From positions 196,785-225,574 of the forward strand of contig NW_003109098.1 in assembly GCF_000003605.2 (NCBI RefSeq): a DNA stretch of 28,790 bases, written 5' to 3'. Origin of the DNA: Saccoglossus kowalevskii (Eukaryota; Hemichordata; Enteropneusta; Harrimaniidae). The notes under the pieces were generated by a model that searched no databases, was not told the DNA's origin, and saw only the letters and a list, made by a program, of their open reading frames with translations. Made by a program: the position numbers and the translations under genes. Within the stretch, counting starts at the first letter, position 1. Each line of letters starts with the position of its first letter. Shown in pieces: positions 1,715-28,790 of this stretch.

Positions 1715-1989
1715 CAAAAAAGAGTTATTTTCCAAAAAACGTATTGTTGGCAACCCCTTTGCAGTTATGGTAATTGCCACCATCCTGGTAGGAGGTTTGT
1801 TCGGCTTATTGCGCCCACGGAAATCAGCTGAGATTTTAAATCGAGGCTCTGTTGAATGGCAATCCTTGACAAGAACATAGTTACAGAAGCCTTGGAAGTC
1901 GTATTTCAGGGCGTCAAACGTTGTCATGTGTGGATCCCCATACCCCCCAGGAGGTGGGGTCGGGGGTTGAGTTGTAGGAGGTATGCTAT
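1715..1989 (-). CDS. Exon with Pro/Thr linker and N-terminal half of a VWD domain
   Basis: Acceptor ...AATCAACAG|AT at 1990/1989 and donor TTG|GTGAGT at 1715/1714; entry phase 1, exit phase 0; 275 nt. The encoded segment starts with a Pro/Thr/Gln linker (PPTTQPPTPPP), then GYGDPHMTTFD, YDFQGFCNYVL and a second cysteine in VKDC. GDPH-x-TTFD followed by YDFQG-x-C-x-YVL is the hallmark opening of von Willebrand factor type D domains (zonadhesin, IgGFc-binding protein, mucins, vitellogenin-like proteins). The domain is cut at about its first 80 residues, so the CGNYN-type motif of the second half must lie in a later exon, not found in this window. Confidence 0.88.
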
Positions 1990-4900
1990 CTGTTGATTTA
2001 ATATACGAAACAATACTCATTTACAAATTGTCTGTCAGTTCCGGTAATAACTTGAGATTGTCATGTTTCCTGGCCCGTTTAATGCCAACAATCTCGAAAT
2101 TAAGGAGCTCTTGGGAAAATCTGATTACATCTCGAGTCCCGCCCACTGCACACTATTGCAAGACGTACTGTTTGACTTGCTTGTATAAATTATAATTGGT
2201 TACTTAGAGAAATATATTTGTTTGGAACATTTTCCCCACTGTATAGTTTATGTGTATAGCACATTTTTTATATATATATATATATCGTTTTTTGTGCCGA
2301 ATTATTTAATTATATGATAATACATCATGTTTAAACACCAGTATATGACAACAAAACACCAGACTTTGTAGTTAAATACACCAAGTATGAATTTTCCTAA
2401 AAAAATCTCTATAAGCAATTTATGTTTGACCCCTGATCAACTCAAAAACGTAAGTGAGGATAACAGTAATTTCATAATAATTAATCTTTGGGAATTCTCC
2501 ATTCTAAGTGCCTTGTAATATGTTGCGAGTCAGCCGTAAGCTTCTCGTATCACTTAAAGCGGGAGGGTCGTCACTTGCGCACGCGCGGGAAAGCCTACCA
2601 GTGCGTGATATGGACGCACATACTATTTTCCCCAGAGATTCTAGAGCACGCCTTATACGAAGGAGAGTGAAACAGATTGTTTGGCCATCAAGTTTTTATT
2701 GTATCGAAATTTAGTCTCTGTATCTATACTTACATCATGTACTACCGCCAAATAGAACATTACTATCTAATTTAATTTGGGGTGTTACAGATACGTTAGT
2801 AGAGCCATTCTCCAAAATAATACAAGTATGGTTACAACAACAAAAACTTACCGCAATCAACGAAATCACAATATGCAAATGCACCGGTGATGTTGCTTGT
2901 ATAGCACCACGGTTTGAAGTCGTTATCTGGATTACGACAGTAAGCATTATCTTCTCCCTCTAGGCCTTTATTAGGATAGGTTGTAGGGTTAATTAAAAAG
3001 TTAACATTGGATGACCAAACCAAGCAAGGCTTCCCATTAGCTATGCCAAACGTTCCACGATAATCTGTTCCAGTTGGGCCATTGTAGCAGTCTGCAAAAA
3101 CATATTATCATCACTTGGATGAATATTTAGGGTTTCGTGGGAGTTTCATCGCATATAGATGAAAATAACAGAGGTAATAAGACATTGTAAGCGTTTGGTG
3201 TAATTGGTTAATTGTAATTTTCAGATAGCGATGGGGATAAAGTGTATATAATTGTGTGAAATCATATTTTTTATTCGGTCTCGGTTGCACGATGTCATCA
3301 CCAGCACATTTTATATGTACCGGTATATATTTTGATAATACTCTAATTATTTACCCAGCTTAGTTTATCATTATCTTCATCACTTTTCTATGCACCAAAT
3401 TAGAAAAGTTACATTTTTACAATCGTATTTATCTGTATACTACTTCCATGTGAGTATCGCCGGAATTGCATTCATATCAGAATAAATACAACAGCGTCCA
3501 GATTACTTTCGAAAATTCCGTCGCGATTCAGAAAGTTTAAATTTTCACTTTTGAATATTTATTTGTTCTTTTAGGTTAGTGAGAATGGGTTATGATAATT
3601 TTTCATTTCACTTTAACACTGTTTTTTTTTCACCTCTCAGATCCCATTAAAATGTCACTTCTGGCCATTATAATGCCCATTATTATTTTAATGGTCAGAA
3701 TATCGACCAGAATTTTTTTTAATGGCCAAATGTGTAGCAGCATTTTTAAAACTGGTAGTTATAATGACCATTATTTTTATACTGTTCAGAATAATGGCAA
3801 TTTTTTTCTTCAGTGATGGAGTTGGTGACAATCTTTTTTTAATGGGCGGTATAATGATCATTTTATTTTTCATAACTTAAATAAAATGGTAATTTTTTCA
3901 TGTCACAGATATAATGGCAAATGGGGATTGACAGATTAATCTTCCTCCTTTTCCTCCCTTGCTTCAGTTTTCTTCAATTTCAAGCCAGTAGAATTGTAGG
4001 TAAACGTCTAAAAATATATAGGATTTTAAAGAATCTGCAATATGAAATTGTATATCTTGAAAAACATTTTTGGATTAATTTCTTTTAAAAATTTGCAAAT
4101 CATTACAACTTGTGCTCTCGATCCTGTTGTTTTAATAATATATAGTGTAATGCAATAGGTTATTAAACATAGAAGGTGACATAAAATAGAAGTTGACTCG
4201 CTTTTAAGATTCAGTATAGACCCCTAGTACAGGCTAACGAAGTGTGCATAAATATTTAGCCCAGGCTACGCAGCGAAAATACCATTGTACTCAATGTCCA
4301 TTTGAAAGATAAACTACTATATATACCTATTATTTTCCGTATGCTATTCTCAAAATGACAATCAATGCAAGCACATTCTGAGATATTATTCTCAAAAGAA
4401 AAAAAATGGAGTACTACTTCCTGTTTTAAAGGCAATGTCCAGCATTATAATACCATGAACAAAGAAACAAGACATTTACTACTGAACCTTCGAACATTGC
4501 ACAATCACACAAATTGCTCATCAAATGATTTTCAAAGGTGATATGTTCATGAGTAATACTATGTAACAACCGAAAAAGTAACATAAATAGAGAGTTAGTC
4601 AAAAAAGTCATAAAACAGCAAGTTATTAATCCAAAAAGAACAAAAATACTTTAACAATAACTTTTATATTTTAATGTGGCTTAGACACTCGTCATTTTGG
4701 AGTTGTGCACAAGTAACTAGGCAGTGAATGACTTGTTTGGTATTATAATGCTATACATTGTCCTTAATTTGTATTGTTATTCTCGCATAACCATAGAACT
4801 AACATGTATACCTTCCCAGTTACTGCACTGAGTAATAATAATAAAAATGATATTATTTTTAACACAAAATATAAGCATACTAGTATGCACAGAATTCGGA

Positions 4901-7900
4901 AAACAAGTGTTGTTGTTCCTTCGCCAGTGTTATAACTGTTGTGTCTTCGTGTGAGTGAACACAATTGGGTATAGCTGATATGCAAACATATGGAATTAAC
5001 TTAAATCTTAGTCTGTACTTGATCAAATTACCACCTTTTTGTATGAAACTATTTTATAACAACATGATTAATATATTTATAATAAATTACACCAATCATA
5101 GAAATTGTTTAGTAGCAGCAAAACTTGTTAAGTTTTCTTGAATAAAGAATGCACCGATCTCACTAGGAATTCATTCAAATCTAGTACCCTCACTCCCACT
5201 CATTAAAAATTTAGTGTGCTTTAATAATGGCTCATTAAAGTACTAACTAATATTGAATTACTGAATTGGAACATACTTTATTGTAAAGTATAGTTCATGC
5301 TCTGTCCTTCTCATGTGACAGTTTAAGAAGACGTAAATTATTTAAAATCATTTTAAAAAAATATTTAAAATACGACTGAAATGTGCAGGCCCAAACTTCT
5401 GCTGCCAAAACGTCCGTCCACCCCTACATGTGCATGCAATTTTTTCTCTGAGATTTTGTAGCCAGATTATTTTTGAATAACTGAATAACACAAGTTTATT
5501 TTTACATTTCCAGATAACATATGACTATATAGTTTTATAATTCTATTAAGAACAGTGATAGAAAATTGTGTTTGAAATATTGCAATGACAGTTTTCAACC
5601 CCCCCCCCCCCCCAAATACAAAAAAAAAACTATGAAAATATTTCGCAATAGGCAAAGATAGTTTTTCGTTTCTCTTGCTTAGGCAGGATGGTGTGCAAAT
5701 TTTCAGAAGCTGATATGAGTTAGTTGACAAATGTCACTTTTATTTGCAGGGGAACACGAACAAGCGATGTAAAGCGACCCTACACACTTGAAACTTTCAA
5801 AATCTTATACCTTCCGGTTTGTTGACCCAAAGTCACGCACTATGCGCAAGCATAACAACGATAAACATGCAAATGCTATCAATTTGGGAATCATCTATCT
5901 AACTTCTTCCGTCATCAACAATTTAACCTACACAGATTAATTGTCATTGTCTGCGAAAAATAATTAAGTTTGCTATTATTAACTTACAATGACCAGTTTT
6001 TATTTAATATACTTGTCCATATTCCTGTCCTCACAGCAATAGCAATGTGATCAAAATGACGTCATCGGAAATGCTAGTTAACCCCCGATGCAACTCAGAT
6101 ACAATATATAATACCATATTTACTCCATTACATTTGTGCATACTAAATCATGAAAATATCACTTATTTCGACCATTGAAGATGGTGCAAGTGCTCCTAAT
6201 ACAGTATTATGGTAAGTGTAAAACTGTTCCTATATTTTTTTCAAATTAAAGAAAATGATATTACAAAATAAAGAAAACATAATATAAGTATCATCCATTT
6301 GACCCATGGATCTTCCAAAAGTAGTGTTTACGCTACACGAAGTATGGGGCTAAGATTACTGGGGGGGGGGGGGAACAGTGGTTAGCACAGGATGAGGAAC
6401 TTAATAAGAATATATAAAATCTTCGGTCATGTTAGCTATGATTGCTCAGTAGAGTAGCTAGAAAGGTATATATGTTGATTCCACATTTATAAAACAATAG
6501 AAAGGCAAATTTAGAAATAGCTGATTGCAGAATAACATGGAGTAGCACATCATCGGTTCATTTTTTCTCGAGCCAATCTTTCTCTGTGTGTTAGCCTTTA
6601 TTGTAATGTTGGAAATGGCACACCGAAATGAATAGCTATAAATATAATAGTAAATCTTCCAAATAAGCATTGAATACCTTAGCGTTTTGGGCGCTTAGTC
6701 TCAGCTAAGCCCTCGGGGGTCACTTTATATGCTTTTACTACCCCATGTGCGTTCCAAATTTAGCGGGAAAGCGGGGGTGTTTTTCACCTTCTAAAGCGGG
6801 CCCGCGCGGGAAGCAAATAGGCCCCCTTTAAAATGCTAATGTTAGCAATAGGCTCCAGAAATAAACTCACAGGGTTGCTGCGCCAGCTGTAGGCCCCCTC
6901 TTGCAACAGCCACTCCCACACACCGCCATAGGCCCCGAATTGGCGGACCCATAGCCCCGACCAGGCCGCAAACGTCCGCCTGAACTTTCCCACCGGGACA
7001 TTCCCGCCACTTCCAACACGAGCATGCGGAGGCTTATTGTAATCGAAGAAACGAAACAAAACAGAACGGAACGGAACGGGTTAACACATATAATAACAAT
7101 TAAACTGTATTCAGTGGAAATGGGTTTTATACGCACAACATTTACAACATTTTGCTGAAAATAATATTTAAGCAATAAACCACCACCGGAGACGAAACTT
7201 GACCAGTATTTTTATTTATTTGTAATTAGGAGCTGCAATAAAATTATTGAAAAAGCACAAACTTTATGAAAAAAGAAACTTTTGAACTTAAAGTAAATAC
7301 AGGAAATAAGTCTAATCTACATAATCTCTTCTATAATCCATGACATCAATAAGAAAACTTCTCACAATTCTATCAATATATTTACCTTTCAGTCATGCAT
7401 TTAACACACTAAAACATTTGCCGAAAACAACGGGATTTTAATTAGTAAACGGTTCGTTTCGCTAATTAAAGATAATCGGAAATCCGCAATCACGCGGCGA
7501 GACAAGGGTCTTACAGGTACAATAATCTATAATAATAATACAATAATCACAAATATCGGACGAAACTTGAGCAGGATTTTTACCTTTCAGTCGTGTATAA
7601 AACTTCATTAAAACAATTATTAAAAGTTAAAACATTCACATTAAAACAATTATCTATAATTAGCGAAACGAATCATTCACTAATTATTTTCACTTTATTT
7701 TTATTTTCGACAAATGTTTCATGGTGTCAAATACACGACGGAAAGGCCGTCTGACAGTTGTGAATATTGTAAGTGTCAGACTCATGTTTCGCTGATACAG
7801 ATTTTCGATTATCTGTAATTAGAGAAACGAGCCATATGCGTATTAAATATTATTATTTTCAGCAAATATTTTGTAAATTGTGTGCGTATAAAACCCATTT

Positions 7901-10378
7901 TCACTAATTACAGTTTAATTTTCATTATGTGTGTTATCCCGTTTCGTTTCGTTTCGTCAATTACAATAAACCGCATACAGAAAGTCACCCCCCCCCCGAG
8001 TCATCCACACTTCCGAAACTCCTTTCGCGCCTCGGCCTCATTCGCATTCAGCTCCTGCTATTTTCTGGGTTTTCTGCCCTGGATTCATGCCAAAGTCACT
8101 CGGAACTGAACATACAATTGCGTCACGTAATGGTATCTGATGGAATAAGAATCCTGGCAAAGTTGTGTGCATTGTGTTTTAAACTATCAAATAAATCATC
8201 ATATTCACACTCATGTCAATAGTTCTCAATTTTTTTCATCAAACAACGAATGACACCAACAGGAGTTGCATACACAGTAACTCCACTTGAGTGCAAAAAG
8301 AAGAATCCTCGCAATAGAGGGTAGGATGTTCTCAATATATGTCTGAAATAGGGGGTGTTTTTTTCTTCAATATGTCTGCTTTAGGGGGTACTAAATTTAC
8401 ATTGCGTCCGCAATAGGGGTATGGTTTGTCCACAGTCCCTCTATCCCAATACCGTGTAAATACTAGTCACCGACCTCTGCGTTACTATGAACTTTCACAG
8501 GGGTCGAGGCAATATTCGTGTCCCTGCAAACGCCAGTGAAACATAAAATTACCACACATATATTGAACTCACACGGGGTAGCAGTTTTATCCTTTTACAT
8601 TAGTGAAATGAACAAAAATAATATACTACTGTTAAAATGACCATTATACTGCCCATTTAAAAAATGTCATCAACTTTATCATTTAAACATGGGTAACTAT
8701 AACCACTAGTTTAAAAATACTGGTCAATATTTTTGCAATTAAAAAAATTCGGGTCGATGTTCTGGCCAATAAGAAAAATAATGGCCAGAAGTGACATTTC
8801 AATGGGATTTGAGAGGTGAAAAAAACAGTGTTAAAAAAAAGTGAAAAATTATTATAACCTCCTCACTAACCTAAAAGTACAAATAAATATTCAAAAGTGA
8901 CAATTTTAACTCTCTGAATCGCGACGGAATTTGTTGTTGTTGTATTTTTCTGATATGAATGCAATTCCGGGGACACTCAAATGGAAATAGTACTAAGAAA
9001 TATTTAAAACATTTGAAAAGTAAAACTTTTCAAAACGCGACTGAATTTCCGAAAGTAATCCGGATGCTGTTATACTTATACTATATTATATTTATATGCA
9101 TATATACACGTCGCTTGTTTTAGCTACATCTACGTTTCAAACAATCAACATGTATACTATATACTATGAAAACATTGAGGATACAATGTAAATCATAAAC
9201 CAATTTGCCTTGTAATTGTAATCAATATGACAAAAGCCTTTGGTGTGCCATAAGCAGTAAGTACTAGTATTCAGTATGGGTATGTGTCCTTTGGATTTGA
9301 CTTTCGTTTTTCCACTAGATTTATTTTCTAAATGTTTATTTAGTGAGAGTCAATTATGTCACGACAGATCTGTCTATATGCTACATTTAGAAATATATAT
9401 CATGTTTTTATGTCATATTGTAATTTACCATTCAACATATTTCTTGTTCTATAAAGTGAGCGTACATATATTTTGTACAATGATATATCTTTTACAGACG
9501 GGAAATACTAAACCAATTATATATATATACATATATATATATATATTGATGGGCGTATGACAAAATAAAAAATCACCCGATTCTATGTCATAAAGTCAAA
9601 TATCTTTGGTCACAACCCAACTAATGTGGCGAGAATGCTACGTCACTGGATTTCTTTGTCATAATTTTCCTTGATATTATTCAATTTTATCAAGTTTAAG
9701 TAGTTATTTATCTAGTCGAAGTTAATTAATATTTTACACAATTATTGTTACTTCTATAATACCTGACTTCCTGGGTGTATGTTCTAAGATCCATATCTCT
9801 CGTTGATGTATTGGTTCAGGAGTTTACTTATCAGTTGCGGTTCGTCTGTATTTTGTGGTTGTTTATTTTGATCTCGATTTATTTGTAAATATTCAATGAG
9901 CCTGCCTATTATTACTAATTTTGTTTGTTCATAGTATAATTAAATGCTCTCAGTGTGTATATGTCATGGATGTGTCAGTATAATGAATGCCAGTCTTCTA
10001 GAGAACCCAACCCGACCATAATATTTTCATTCCGGGTCCAGTGATGTTAAGGGAAAGTCACAGTGGTTTTATATGTGCTTAACTCTCCTGTCCATCACAT
10101 TTCTCGCAAAATGTACTCACCAACAGTTCGCCTTTGCTTTGCGTGTTTGACGGCCTGAAAGACAAACGTTTCACTAGTTAATATACATTGTACGTTACAA
10201 CATTCTTTCACGAATGTATAAGAAGTTTAAGTAAAATCAAACAAAAACATTAATATATTCTTACCCCGGGTTGGAGAGGGGCTAGTTTTTTGACAGCTGC
10301 CTTCCATGTGTTTTTACAAGTCACGTGATACACACTCAGCAAAATCACAACAATTGTACAAATTGATGCAGCGTTCAT
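1715..10378 (-). CDS. Secreted kringle-VWD protein gene (5' part, four exons)
   Basis: Model on the minus strand: exon 1 10378-10265, exon 2 10154-10121, exon 3 3091-2852, exon 4 1989-1715. The exon sum is 663 nt, exactly 221 codons. Junction phases agree: 0 between exons 1 and 2, 1 between 2 and 3 (G|AC = Asp), and 1 between 3 and 4 (G|AT = Asp). The product has a signal peptide, a short basic segment, one complete kringle, a Pro/Thr-rich linker and the N-terminal half of a VWD domain. It would be secreted; kringles bind proteins or lysine side chains, and VWD domains build multimeric or mucin-like proteins. The 3' end is not visible; exon 4 stops inside the VWD at a strong donor, phase 0. 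The roughly 7-kb intron 2 contains large inverted repeats and a possible nested gene. What is seen: exons, splice sites, domains. Inferred: that exons 1-2 belong with exons 3-4. Exons in between cannot be excluded. Confidence 0.7.
2063..2188 (+). other. Small unrecognised ORF (41 codons)
   Basis: An ATG-to-TAA frame encodes 41 residues beginning MFPGPFNANNLEIKELLGKS. Its composition looks more protein-like than the surrounding DNA, and it has in-frame stops on both sides. It lies in the intron between the kringle and VWD exons, on the opposite strand. No family is recognised and no splice sites are convincing. It could be a transposon fragment or chance. Confidence 0.15.
2488..2714. other. 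Locally CpG-rich segment, open in two plus-strand frames
   Basis: About 2525-2665 is richer in G+C and CpG than its surroundings, and two overlapping plus-strand frames stay open (2488-2670 and 2508-2714). It contains GCGCGGGAAA at 2583-2592, which matches the E2F consensus. The encoded peptides are arginine-rich and unrecognised, and the two overlapping frames cannot both be explained as coding. It could be an intronic regulatory island or a fragment of a mobile element. Confidence 0.25.
2852..3091 (-). CDS. Complete kringle-domain exon
   Basis: Acceptor TTTTTGCAG|AC and donor TGCG|GTAAGT bound a 240-nt symmetric phase 1-1 exon, as usual for kringle modules. With the Asp restored at the junction, cysteines fall at residues 2, 23, 52, 63, 75 and 80, the canonical six-cysteine pattern (disulfides 1-6, 2-4, 3-5 in the family). 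Family motifs YRG, EDNAYCRNPD and KPWCYT are present. In the lysine-binding site, the acidic pair D-x-D (NPDNDF) and the Trp of PWC are kept. The Arg and Trp found just before the fifth cysteine in plasminogen kringle 4 read Ala and Phe here (GAFAYC), so lysine binding may be weak or altered. That last point is inference from motif positions. Confidence 0.95.
3440..3885 (+). repeat. Left arm of a widely spaced inverted repeat
   Basis: Read forward, this segment matches the reverse complement of 8620-8990 over roughly 400 bp. Shared landmarks include GGAATTGCATTCATATCAGA, the CGCGATTCAGA stretch, TTGAATATTTATTTGT and CCATT..AATGTCACTTCTGGCC. Inside are many short 'ATAATGGCCATT / AATGGTCA / AATGGCAA' words in alternating sense, which makes the arm internally repetitive. 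The right arm lacks about 20 bp present here near 3495-3515 and differs elsewhere by small indels. It could be terminal repeats of one large element or two copies of a smaller element inserted in opposite orientation. Confidence 0.8.
3890..6050. other. Intron sequence, no gene seen; poly-C tract
   Basis: AT-rich DNA inside the long intron of the minus-strand gene. No domain, RNA gene or long open frame is recognised on either strand. A run of 15 Cs occupies 5599-5613, followed by an A run. Confidence 0.5.
6057..6112 (+). promoter_or_regulatory. Candidate promoter: perfect CRE plus TATA-like box
   Basis: TGACGTCA, the full palindromic cAMP-response element (CREB/ATF site), is at 6057-6064. 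TATATAAT lies at 6105-6112, about 38 bp before the ATG of the candidate exon at 6150. The order CRE, TATA, ATG, splice donor is that of a compact inducible promoter. These are motif matches only, and TATA-like words are common in AT-rich DNA. Confidence 0.35.
6150..6211 (+). CDS. Candidate first coding exon of a nested gene
   Basis: ATG at 6150 (A at -3) opens 20 codons, MKISLISTIEDGASAPNTVL, and the frame reaches a strong donor ATG|GTAAGTGT with exon end 6211, exit phase 2. A CRE and a TATA-like box lie just upstream. It sits on the plus strand inside the 7-kb intron of the minus-strand kringle-VWD gene. No family is recognised and no second exon was found. Short ATG frames ending at GTAAGT do occur by chance. 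Confidence 0.3.
6361..6373 (+). repeat. Poly-G tract
   Basis: A run of 13 Gs in AT-rich DNA. It could form a G-quadruplex and is prone to length error in assembly. Confidence 0.9.
6695..7180 (+). repeat. Left arm of an inner inverted-repeat element, G+C-rich outer part
   Basis: About 7027-7175 matches the reverse complement of about 7840-7975. Landmarks are AATGGGTTTTATACGCACA at 7119-7137 against its complement near 7882-7900, and the GAAACGAAACAAAACAGAAC tract against GTTTCGTTTCGTTTCG. The outer part (6695-7020) is unusually G+C-rich and contains several AGGCCCC words. Its reverse complement shares GCTTT...CTAAATTT...GGGGTA with about 8376-8430. The minus-strand frames across it (7059-6784, 7175-6867) match no family and are probably incidental. 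Confidence 0.7.
7190..7835. repeat. Loop of the inner element: short repeats in alternating orientation
   Basis: Between the arms, a degenerate unit of about 95 bp recurs. In plus sense it runs GATTATCT-TAATTAG-GAAACGA, then CTAATTA, then TTTTCGGCAAATGTTT, then a GACTGAAAGG end. It is seen at about 7650-7747 and 7808-7900 (plus), and at about 7384-7480 (minus). A direct repeat CGAAACTTGA-CAG-ATTTTTA occurs at about 7193 and 7561, and TACCTTTCAGTC at about 7384 and 7581. No coding frame is seen. The pattern resembles a foldback-type non-autonomous element or stacked MITEs. Confidence 0.6.
7840..8308 (-). repeat. Right arm of the inner inverted-repeat element
   Basis: The part 7840-7975 is the inverted partner of 7027-7175. 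It includes GTTTCGTTTCGTTTCG at about 7941-7956 and a short poly-C at about 7987-7997. From about 8000 to 8308 the sequence no longer pairs clearly with the left arm, and no gene is recognised. The plus frames at 7882-8109 and 7929-8222 have no family signature. Confidence 0.6.
8309..8440 (+). repeat. Degenerate tandem repeat of about 33 bp, four units
   Basis: Four units begin near 8309, 8342, 8376 and 8408, each carrying CNGCAATAGGGGGTA or a variant, followed by a T-rich stretch ending CAATATGT or similar. The third unit contains the CTAAATTT block shared in inverted form with the left arm near 6750, so the array belongs to the inner inverted-repeat element. Confidence 0.6.
8620..8990 (-). 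repeat. Right arm of the widely spaced inverted repeat
   Basis: Inverted partner of 3440-3885, described there. Just beyond it, at about 9025-9090, a short stretch (CGCGACTGAATTTCCGAAAG...) again resembles the same arm. The right flank therefore holds a partial second copy in the same orientation, including the roughly 20-bp block that the main right arm lacks. Confidence 0.8.
9091..10110. other. Intron sequence, no gene seen; TA-rich tract
   Basis: AT-rich DNA within intron 2 of the kringle-VWD gene. A (TA)n tract with one interruption occupies about 9518-9547. The plus-strand frame at 9276-9560 runs into this tract and has no recognisable domain; it is regarded as chance. Confidence 0.5.
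10121..10154 (-). CDS. 34-nt microexon of the kringle-VWD gene
   Basis: Acceptor GTTTGTCTTTCAG|GCC and donor GTTG|GTGAGTAC are both strong. The exon reads 11 codons, AVKHAKQRRTV, plus one base (entry phase 0, exit phase 1). The extra G completes an Asp codon with the kringle exon. The segment is very basic and contains an Arg-Arg pair that could be a proprotein cleavage site before the kringle; the cleavage is inference. Confidence 0.7.
10265..10378 (-). CDS. First coding exon: signal peptide and basic segment
   Basis: ATG at 10378 (A at -3) opens 38 codons ending at donor CCCGGG|GTAAGA, phase 0. Residues 1-21 form a typical signal peptide, MNAASICTIVVILLSVYHVT plus Cys, with a hydrophobic core at residues 6-16 and likely cleavage near residue 20 or 21. 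The following residues are Lys-rich and end LAPLQPG. A pyrimidine-rich TTTATCTCCAG directly precedes the ATG, so an acceptor there, with a separate 5'-UTR exon, is possible. The exon lies just beside the left end of the LINE, which is on the other strand. Confidence 0.75.
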
Positions 10379-10461: not shown

Positions 10462-12535
10462 CTGGTGTTCACACTGAAATATAGCAAAAAGAAGGCCAAC
10501 AAAGGGGGAAAACTAGAATTAAAAGTTGAAGAGATGGAAAAGTATTTAGCATTTCAACAAACAGAGGACATTGCAGAAGAGTGCCAAAAAGCTACAGATG
10601 AACTCCAAAAAGAACTAGATCATATAAACGAGGGGAGTATATGCGTGACCAATAGTATGGGTAGATCAAGGTGTGACTGGTATGAGTATGGAGAGAGAAA
10701 ATAATAAATATTTTGTTATCATTGGAAAAATTAAATGATAAGACTCTCGGTAAACAAGAAGAGTTTTTTTTTGTGCCAGGCGACAGTTCCGTACATTGAA
10801 TGTCATTGTTGTCTCTCCTGACTTTTTTTTATTGTGCAAATTGCAAGTGCTAGTGCTGACACATAGTGAATTTTTGACAGGGCTGTGCGGCCATCTCCCT
10901 ATCAAATGGCAATTTAATGCGCTATCCTGGCGTCAACCAGGCTCGGTCGAACACAAGCACCTGCGGACCTTAACCAAGGTTCCCCCAAAGTCACATTCGT
11001 TAGTGAATAAATCTGGATTGGCCTTCCTATTGAGTCTGTGGCACACTCACCCAGGGTATGTTGATGTTCAGCCTATGATAGGATTTGAACTTGGGTCTAC
11101 CGATCGAGTCTGATGCGACAAACATTATGCTACCAGTGACTGAATAAATTAACAAAGAAATTCTATGAAGATTTGTATTCAACAAAAATTCAGCCAGTGA
11201 ATGAGACAAATAAAGATCAAGAAATTGTTGTTCTTTAACAATCTAGAAACTCCAAAACTAGAAACTTCCAAGGGAGGAAGCACTACAGTCAGAGGGTATG
11301 ATTACATTAGAAGAAGCAGAAAGTGCACTAAAATAATTACAAAATAATGAGACTCCTGGAAATGACTGTCTCACAGTTGAATTTTTAAAAAATATTTGAG
11401 CCAACCTTAGGTCATATCTAGTTAGATTACTAAACAGCGGGTTTGAAAAAGGTGAATTTTCACCATCACAAAGACAGGGGGTAATAATTTTGCTTGCAGA
11501 TATATTAAAAACTGGCGACCAGTTGCATTATTAAATATAGACTACAAGATTGGAACCAAATGTTTGGCAAGGAGAATGAACAAAATATTACCAAAAATTA
11601 TAAATCAAACACAATCGGCCTTCGTGAAGAATAGATACATTGGGGACCTCATAAGACTGGTAGAAAATACTATGCAATATAGGGATAATATGAAGATACC
11701 AGGTATTCTCATTTCAATCGATTTTGAAAAGGCATTTGATAGTCTGGATGGAGCTTCATGCTGGAAGCGTTAAAAGCCTTTACAAAATCTCCTTTAGCTG
11801 TTTTATGAACAAAGGTACATCTACCGAATATTTCTATCTGAGAAGAGGAGTTAGACAAGGGGATTGCATTTCTCCAGCATTGTTTATTCTGAGCTTAGAA
11901 ATATTCTTGATTGCATTGCGTAGCAACAATTATATTAAGGGAATCAAAATTAATAACCAAGAAATCAAGAATGCAATCCTGCAAGATAGCATGTCCGCTA
12001 AAAATGTATTCACACTTTTAAACAAATCTAAAGATAATTCAGGGCTACAAATAAATTTTGAAAAATCAGAAGCCATGTGGCTTGGCAAACTGAAAAGGAG
12101 TAAACAAAAACCATTGAAGTTGAAATGACCTAAAGAACCAATAAAAAGAGTTAGAATCCATGTCTCTTATGACTATGTAAAAGCAAAAAACTTAAATAAA
12201 ACTCGGGATTCTACATTGGCAGGTAGAATTCAGATAATCAAAACACTAGGAATTTCTAAAATGCAAGATTTATTAAGCATGGTGGAAGGAAATTAATAAA
12301 ATTCTCTACGATTTTCTATGGAGAGGACCAGATCGGATAGCGAGACACACATTTATTGGCTGTAAAAAAAGGAGGGTTAAATAAGCCTGATATATATACA
12401 TTTTGTATATATACAGTAAATATAGCAATTAGGATTGACTGGATAAGAAGGTACTGCGACCAGTCAATCAAACATCCATGATTCAGCTTTGGTTCGTGGA
12501 CGTTTTATTGGTACGAGTTGTTTAAAATGCTGTGA
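10462..12535 (+). pseudogene. Broken L1/Tx1-like LINE, ORF2 remnant with reverse transcriptase
   Basis: Fragments of one non-LTR retrotransposon ORF lie in several plus-strand frames: 10465-10704 (linker ahead of the RT), about 11145-11560 (frames broken by stops), 11564-11773, 11724-12128, and weak traces to about 12535. Visible RT motifs are QSAFVKNRYIGD, IDFEKAFDSLD (catalytic motif A), RRGVRQGD (motif B), and downstream LQINFEKSEAMWLGK and LAGRIQIIKTLG. The YADD catalytic block expected between IKINNQEIK and LQDSMSAKN is missing, so the enzyme is dead. No endonuclease domain is present, consistent with 5' truncation on insertion. A SINE interrupts it at about 10764-11140. Assignment to the L1/Tx1 group rests on the motif spelling and is less certain than the LINE call. 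Confidence 0.88.
10764..11140 (-). mobile_element. tRNA-derived SINE inserted in the LINE
   Basis: On the minus strand, TAGCATAATG (11132-11123) resembles a Pol III A box and AGTTCAAATCC (11091-11081) a B box, spaced as in a tRNA gene. After the tRNA-like head comes an unrelated body and a tail with GACATTCAATGT and CGCCTGGCAC ending in an A run (plus-strand T run at about 10766-10774). The LINE frame resumes on both sides, so the SINE is younger than the LINE. No clear target-site duplication was found. The plus-strand frame 10796-11113 and the minus-strand frame 11209-11027 are incidental. Confidence 0.75.
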
Positions 12536-15085: not shown

Positions 15086-15382
15086 TTAAATTCTACCTGT
15101 TTGAAATAAGCTCTGGTCTTGTATACGTTGGATTATTTGGTATTCTTGAGTATTGTCTGTTTTATGCGCATGTGCTCTACTTAACACTCGACGTAACATG
15201 TCATCGACGTACATCCTGGTAAGTATATATACTTGTAGGTTGTACTTTTGCAGTGCTGAATGTAACGATTTTTGTAAAACCATAACCAATGGTTTATGGT
15301 CTAATTCTACAGTGATTTTATGACGATGACAATGCAAGCATTGGTTAAATCTGCAACAAGCAAAACAATGCGCTGGAGACAA
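15086..15382 (-). pseudogene. Ty3/Gypsy RNase H fragment
   Basis: A minus-strand open frame of 98 codons contains KITVELDHKPLVMVLQKSLH and further on MYVDDMLRRVLSRAHA. These correspond to the RNase H region (the T/E-x-DHKPL block and the 'ADxLSRA' end) of Ty3/Gypsy polyproteins. The stretch between them is shorter than in intact elements, so there is an internal deletion. It is non-functional. Confidence 0.85.
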
Positions 15383-15399
15383 ATGCCACTAGCTGTCCA

Positions 15400-27345: not shown

Positions 27346-28790
27346 TAAACTGAACTGTATACCAGTACTGTCAAACAATTCAAAACTAAACACCAGTAAA
27401 GTGAAACTTGTATAAACAGAACACCAGTACAGTGAAACCTGTCTAAACCAAACACCAGTACAGTAAAACCTGTCTAAACCAAACACCAGTACAGTAAAAC
27501 CTGTCTAAACCAAACACCAGTACAGTGATACCTGTCTAAACTGAACACCAGTACAGTGATACCTGTCTAAACTGAACACCAGTACAGCAAAAACTGTCTA
27601 AATGGAACACCAGTACAGTGAAACCTGTCTAAACTGAAAACCAGTACAGAGAAACCTGTCTAAACTGAAAACCAGTACAGAGAAACCTGTCTAAACTGAA
27701 AACCAGTACAATGAAACCTATCCACAGTATACCAAATACCAGTACATTGGAACCTGGCTAAACTGAACACAAGTGGAGTGAAACCTGTCTAAACCAAACA
27801 CCAGTACAGTGAAACCTGTCTAAACTGAACACCAGTACAGTGAAACCTGTCTAAACTGAACACCAGTACAGGGAAACCTGACCCAGCCAAATGACTGGTT
27901 ATAGTTGACTGGTTATAACTGTATACCAGTAGTGTCAAACCTTTCAAAACTAAACACCAGTAAAATGAACTTGTATAAACAGAACACCAGTACAGTGAAA
28001 CCTGTCTAAACTGAACACCAGTAAAGTGAAACCTGTTTAAACTGAACATCAGTACAGTGAAACCTGTCTAAACTGAACACCAGTACAGTGAAACCTGTCT
28101 AAACCAGACACCAGTACAGTGAAACCTGTCTAACCTGAACACCAGTACAGTGAAACCTATCAAAACTAAACACCAGTACAGTGAAACCTATCAAAACTAA
28201 ACATCAGTACAGTGAAACCTATCAAAACTAAACACCAGTACAGAGAAACCTGTCTAAACTGAAAACCAGTACAGAGAAACCTGTCCAAGCTGAACACCAG
28301 TACAATGAAACCTATCCACAGTATACCAAATACCAGTACATTGGAACCTGGCTAAACTGAACACAAGTGGAGTGAAACCTGTCTAAACCAAACACCAGTA
28401 CAGTGAAACCTGTCTAAACTGAACACCAGTACAGTGAAACCTGTCTAAACTGAAAACCAGTACAGAGAAACCTGTCCAAGCTGAACACCAGTACAATGAA
28501 ACCTATCTACAGTATACCAAATACCAGTACATTGGAACCTGGCTAAACTGAACACCAGTACATTGGAACCTGTCTAAATGGAACACCAGTACATTGGAAC
28601 CTGTCTAAACCGAACACCAGTACAGTGAAACCAGTCTAAACCAAACACCAGTACAGTGAAACCAGTCTAAACCAAACACCAGTACAGTGAAACCAGTCTA
28701 AACCAAACACCAGTACAGTGAAACCTGTATAAACCGAACACCAGTACAGTGAAACCTGTCTAAATGGAACACCAGTACAGAGAAACCTGG
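27346..28790 (+). repeat. 31-bp minisatellite array, about 46 units, continuing past the window
   Basis: The unit is close to AACACCAGTACAGTGAAACC TGTCTAAACTG with substitutions and occasional unit-length changes. Higher-order structure is visible. A variant block (CCACAGTATACCAAATACC ... CATTGGAACCTGGC) recurs at about 27722, 28316 and 28506. The variant block that opens the array near 27350 (TGTATACCAGTA) recurs near 27919. The minus-strand frames 27486-27223 and 28049-27789 are artefacts of the repeat. The array reaches the last base, so its true length is unknown. Confidence 0.95.

Follow-up and report, generated by a model that had tools for sequence, protein, structure and literature searches.

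The window, by which we mean the whole 28,790-nucleotide stretch of DNA that was analysed, carries on its minus strand a kringle and the first part of a VWD domain within one open frame with compatible splice signals, and this much is established at the level of sequence. We favor, with a probability of about 60%, the reading that these features belong to the start of a kringle-VWD gene for a secreted invertebrate mosaic protein, which would open with a signal peptide and a basic propeptide-like segment, proceed through the kringle, a Pro/Thr linker, and the VWD, and then continue into further modules. The encoded product would most likely be a mosaic protein of the extracellular matrix or of mucus, or one active in adhesion or immunity, assembled via phase-1 exon shuffling. 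From this arrangement we infer a transcript, together with the secretion, cleavage, binding, and assembly of its product.

The gene model comprises four exon-like stretches, all on the minus strand. Exon 1 (10378-10265; 114 nt) starts with an ATG at 10378, encodes a signal-peptide-like stretch of approximately residues 1-21 as judged by eye, begins the basic segment, and closes on a GT donor. The basic segment ends (KHAKQRR TV) in exon 2 (10154-10121), a 34-nt micro-exon with AG/GT bounds, as are also found at the two exons that follow. Exon 3 (3091-2852; 240 nt) contains the entire kringle and is a symmetric 1-1 exon, the classic class of shuffled extracellular modules, while exon 4 (1989-1715; 275 nt) encodes a Pro/Thr linker and then the N-terminal part of a VWD. 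Joined, the four stretches have cumulative phases of 0, 1, and 1 after exons 1, 2, and 3 and form an open frame of 663 nt, or 221 amino acids. The original prediction had placed four minus-strand exons at these coordinates and in these phases, with a Pro/Thr linker ahead of the VWD, and these elements are all borne out. Its description of the 221 residues as one secreted protein does not hold, as they represent a gene fragment with about 40% of the VWD profile in exon 4 and a donor-like end. Likewise, the proposed order of signal peptide, kringle, and VWD stands with respect to both domains and a signal-like exon 1, but the model is probably just the N-terminal, 5' part of a gene with more modules to follow. 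All of its junctions are predicted from phases and splice signals, including the one that would unite exons 1 and 2 with the kringle exon in a single transcript across the approximately 7-kb intron between exons 2 and 3.

Splice sites were scored with approximate, untrained weight matrices and ranked against the GTs and AGs of the minus strand. By this measure the four donors, at 8.8-10.4 bits, rank within the highest 0.2-0.8% of GTs on that strand; exon 1 has a donor of 8.9 bits (top 0.6%), and the phase-1 donor of the kringle exon reaches 10.4 bits. Exon 2 ranks highly at both its acceptor (top 1.4% of AGs) and its donor (top 0.8% of GTs), as does the donor-like site that ends exon 4 (top 0.8% of GTs). 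The exon 3 acceptor lies in the top 6.6% of AGs, and that of exon 4 is weak, with a score of 1.8 bits that is equalled or beaten by 38.5% of AGs. Six ATG-led, hydrophobic stretches with a donor above 5 bits were found as first-exon candidates on the minus strand between 3300 and 22000, and exon 1 leads them both in hydrophobic peak (3.48, the next being 3.28) and in donor strength (8.9 bits, the next being 6.6), which supports the earlier claim of a signal-peptide-like first exon. Just 5' of its ATG there is a pyrimidine-preceded AG (6.3 bits, top 6.9% of AGs) that would allow an additional non-coding exon upstream.

The basic segment that precedes the kringle is 26 residues long and carries a net charge of +8, and the KQRR at its end, directly before the kringle, is by its motif what we take to be a dibasic or furin-like site of the proprotein-convertase type. 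The amphipathicity of this segment is unremarkable notwithstanding its charge, since 2636 of 5000 shuffles match its best helical moment, and the idea of an antimicrobial helix was dropped.

A domain search of the 221 residues, which the original prediction had proposed, returned two Pfam matches, a Kringle and a partial VWD, both far from chance. The kringle call proved correct: PF00051 matches residues 51-129 (3089-2853 in the window, minus strand) over the full length of its profile (positions 1-79 of 79), with an E-value of 6.2e-17 and a score of 62.1 bits, above the curated cut-off of 34.3. The VWD call is upheld as well: PF00094 matches residues 146-204 (1942-1766, minus strand; E 2.1e-11) at 44.8 bits, above its curated cut-off of 22.9, but the match covers the N-terminal part only, positions 4-63 of 156. 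Searches against solved structures matched the kringle to those of plasminogen, HGF, and prothrombin and the VWD part to the D domains of FCGBP, VWF, and mucins. No second copy of either domain was found in the window by tblastn, the sole extra match being 10 residues long with an E-value of 6.2.

The window kringle is identical to plasminogen kringle 1 at 35 of 74 aligned residues and to plasminogen kringle 4 at 35 of 76, and all six of its cysteines align with those of kringle 4. Its CRNPDND and PWCY motifs keep the Asp pair, Trp, and Tyr found in plasminogen kringle 1. We take the lysine-binding pocket of a kringle to consist of Asp-x-Asp, Trp, an aromatic residue (Tyr), and Arg, and the Arg of KRYDYC in plasminogen kringle 1 and of VRWEYC in kringle 4 is aligned to Ala here (GAFAYC). 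Because the Asp pair, Trp, and Tyr are kept but the Arg is replaced, lysine binding by this kringle is possible, without being a confident prediction. A single-sequence structure prediction for the kringle (79 residues) gave a mean pLDDT of 36.8, too low to be informative.

Several features of exon 4 relate to what may lie on either side of it. Its frame is closed upstream of 2020, where there is an ATG followed by no signal-like stretch, so a secreted product requires an upstream exon; the phase-1 donor of the kringle exon, 862 bases away, fits as that partner. Because the VWD is unfinished and exon 4 ends at a donor-like site, the gene probably continues. Further modules such as C8, TIL, EGF, or others may follow beyond the window, and for this reason an absence of the usual VWD companions cannot be claimed. 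Pfam gave no match to the rest of the VWD in the 50 ORFs scanned out of the 96 in the window that have at least 60 residues.

As a proposed continuation, we considered acceptor-led, phase-0 frames of at least 18 residues from 1650 to the window start, which yielded 31 candidates. The stretch 599-449 (minus strand, phase 0 to 1), which begins ISGVSV, has the top summed splice score, combining a 10.9-bit donor with a weak acceptor of 3.1 bits, and it is a sequence-based candidate for a fifth exon. In 3 of 34 chains among the structure matches listed (two of FCGBP and one of mucin-5B) the best stretch extends to LISGV. Adding 599-449 raises the Pfam VWD score from 44.8 to 45.5 bits, a gain of 0.7, and its frame alone has no Pfam match. 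With a small VWD profile that we built from three bacterial VWDs and applied to all 31 candidates, best-domain scores range from 31.1 to 32.2 bits compared with 32.7 for exon 4 alone, and 599-449 is tied for lowest at 31.1. By whole-sequence score, candidates with acceptors at 518 and 1371 reach 33.9 and 33.2 bits, above the 32.8 of exon 4 alone, and 599-449 falls below it at 31.9. The VWD being incomplete in the window and this fifth exon lacking profile support, the gene could be truncated.

The remainder of the window, in which G+C content is 29-41% per kilobase, is marked by repeats. This composition, with the exon-like structure, the repeats, and a reverse transcriptase, suggests an animal genome, and the look of the repeats prompted a guess at a mollusc or near relative, perhaps some lophotrochozoan. 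Among its 96 ORFs of at least 60 residues, 50 were scanned singly with Pfam, and a reverse transcriptase was the sole convincing domain; apart from a Focal_AT match in a tandem array, the remaining matches fell below their cut-offs. Pieces of RVT_1 lie upstream of exon 1 at 11456-12128 on the plus strand, in two overlapping frames with E-values of 4.8e-10 and 6.1e-6, the latter just below the cut-off; this is a broken reverse-transcriptase element, presumably LINE-type by its look. A weak, below-cut-off match to RT_RNaseH at 15089-15388 (minus strand, E 0.056) is possibly another retroelement remnant. The exon 2-3 intron contains four inverted-repeat pairs of 41-71 nt that are 83-96% complementary, located at 3427-3671 and 8778-9003 and flanking about 5.1 kb; they represent either two copies of a repeat in opposite orientation or the termini of an element. 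A further 64-nt inverted pair, at 117-180 and 10764-10827 and 94% complementary, probably represents two copies of a dispersed repeat. There are also two tandem arrays, one of a 45-bp unit at 775-1276 (11.1 copies, 97% matches, open in three of six frames) and one of a 31-bp unit at 27353-28789 (about 46 copies) that runs up to the window end. The match to Focal_AT, at 761-1387 (E 2.2e-6; 28.1 bits, cut-off 23.3), falls in the 45-bp array and was taken as an artefact of repetition. In the window, Rfam gave no match at gathering thresholds, and ARAGORN found no tRNA. An NCBIfam scan likewise gave no match.

The 5' end of the model invites the alternative that the kringle and VWD exons form one gene whose true 5' exons lie elsewhere, with exons 1 and 2 belonging to another gene or transcript. 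The 7-kb intron with its internal repeats and the reverse-transcriptase stretch on the opposite strand, approximately 1.1 kb upstream of exon 1, speak for this alternative, yet we judge it unlikely in view of the strong splice sites of exons 1 and 2, their correct phase for joining exon 3, and the position of exon 1 as the best of the six signal-like candidates. At the opposite end, the joining of exons 3 and 4 is predicted from phases and splice signals, and one could imagine two neighboring genes on the same strand, the first ending with the kringle and the second beginning with the VWD. The weak exon 4 acceptor and the ATG at 2020 in the exon 4 frame are in keeping with such a division; nevertheless, the exons are separated by just 862 bases, a 10.4-bit phase-1 donor ends the kringle exon, exon 4 has the matching phase 1 and opens on a linker between domains, and translation from the ATG at 2020 would give a product lacking any signal-like stretch, so that we attach very little weight to it.

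It is also conceivable, if decidedly improbable, that the locus is a pseudogene, a decayed or truncated copy in which the VWD was cut short after exon 4. Coverage of the VWD profile stops at position 63 of 156, with the remainder unmatched in the ORFs scanned, and the 11-copy array of 45 bp separates exon 4 from the candidate exon 5. Set against these signs of decay are 663 nt without a stop or frameshift, the retention of all six kringle cysteines, and a donor after exon 4 that ranks among the top 0.8% of GTs; moreover, other exons may lie past base 1.

If the four exons open a single kringle-VWD gene, as we favor, its product would be secreted via the signal peptide of exon 1, and the basic segment may be removed by a cut at KQRR, immediately before the kringle. 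The kringle could then dock through its Asp-x-Asp/Trp/Tyr pocket on a cationic ligand, lysine-rich or of another kind, or on a glycan, while the VWD and downstream modules would anchor or assemble the protein in an extracellular matrix or in a mucus, adhesive, or immune secretion. A far more speculative idea, which we regard as a long shot, is that of a new secreted family of invertebrates in which the basic propeptide fills the kringle lysine pocket in cis until KQRR is cut, whereupon the freed kringle would bind lysine-rich partners and the VWD would assemble a clot-, mucus-, or glue-like matrix. The self-locking of plasminogen is known, and a kringle blocked in cis would be its protease-free counterpart.

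Kringles are small binding modules best known from blood-clotting proteins. If the transcript were confirmed, the pairing of kringle and VWD would join the catalogue of exon-shuffled extracellular proteins as two modules best known from clotting in one chain, probably of an invertebrate. The protein would then be a candidate for studies of mucus, adhesion, or immunity, and the understanding of either module would be unchanged. The pairing looks uncommon, within an ordinary kind of mix-and-match secreted protein.

The original prediction knew of no named family with this order, and no description of a kringle-VWD protein or family appeared among the full-text literature matches listed, in the parts of sources that include PMC11788884, PMC6071037, and PMC9643190. 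This silence is weak evidence of absence, because in some cases the matches are listed in part and the search was of papers rather than of protein-architecture databases or animal genomes. Kringles are promiscuous in their domain partners, and an excerpt on deuterostome-specific domain combinations lists the kringle among hub domains, with six partners (PMC2394772). The available text on a limpet describes an adhesive candidate with peptidase_M12A, ApeC, CUB, kringle, sushi, C-type-lectin-like, and ShKT domains (PMC7333891), and mussel transcript tables, as excerpted, include a 'MAC/perforin- and kringle-dom-cont prot' and a 'Von Willebrand factor D and EGF dom-contprot' (PMC4581086). In a prokaryote genome collection, 3 of 43 pattern matches were confirmed, each of them within the VWD portion of the query (residues 98-134 of 172); a viral collection gave 24 pattern matches, none of which was confirmed.

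Several known systems can be compared with the predicted protein. Like the kringles of plasminogen, HGF, and prothrombin, the window kringle is full-length, with six cysteines and the Asp-x-Asp and Trp/Tyr of the pocket, but here a single kringle is followed by a VWD, and the 221 residues include no protease domain. Neither they nor the 50 ORFs scanned with Pfam, out of 96 in the window with at least 60 residues, gave a trypsin match, and the gene probably leaves the window. With the D domains of FCGBP, VWF, and the gel-forming mucins, exon 4 has in common the VWD start GDPHxxTFDxxxYDFQGxCxYVL, whereas the window shows the N-terminal part of the domain, and the C8/TIL partners, which were not seen in it, would fall beyond the window start. 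The three confirmed prokaryotic matches, VWD proteins of bacterial MAGs (L001, 4593-6059; L002, 4611-6089; L003, 3666-6767), have a similar VWD start, GDPHMTTFD, and a near-complete VWD in Pfam, and one also has Big_5 and LCCL; they differ in being bacterial records with no kringle match.

Among marine invertebrates, the VWDE-type protein of molluscs is a comparable VWD-bearing mosaic, although its name, as it stands in the excerpted tables, includes no kringle (PMC4581086). In a flatworm, a single glue is reported to have among its candidate components one protein with kringles and another with a vWD, and knocking down the former gave a non-adhesive phenotype (PMC9229212). That pair, Tmed-krg1 and Tmed-ap1, brings the same two kinds of module into one adhesive system, but it does so on separate chains, one being a predicted membrane protein that bears six kringles and the other having a signal peptide and a vWD accompanied by C8, TIL, and other domains (PMC9229212).
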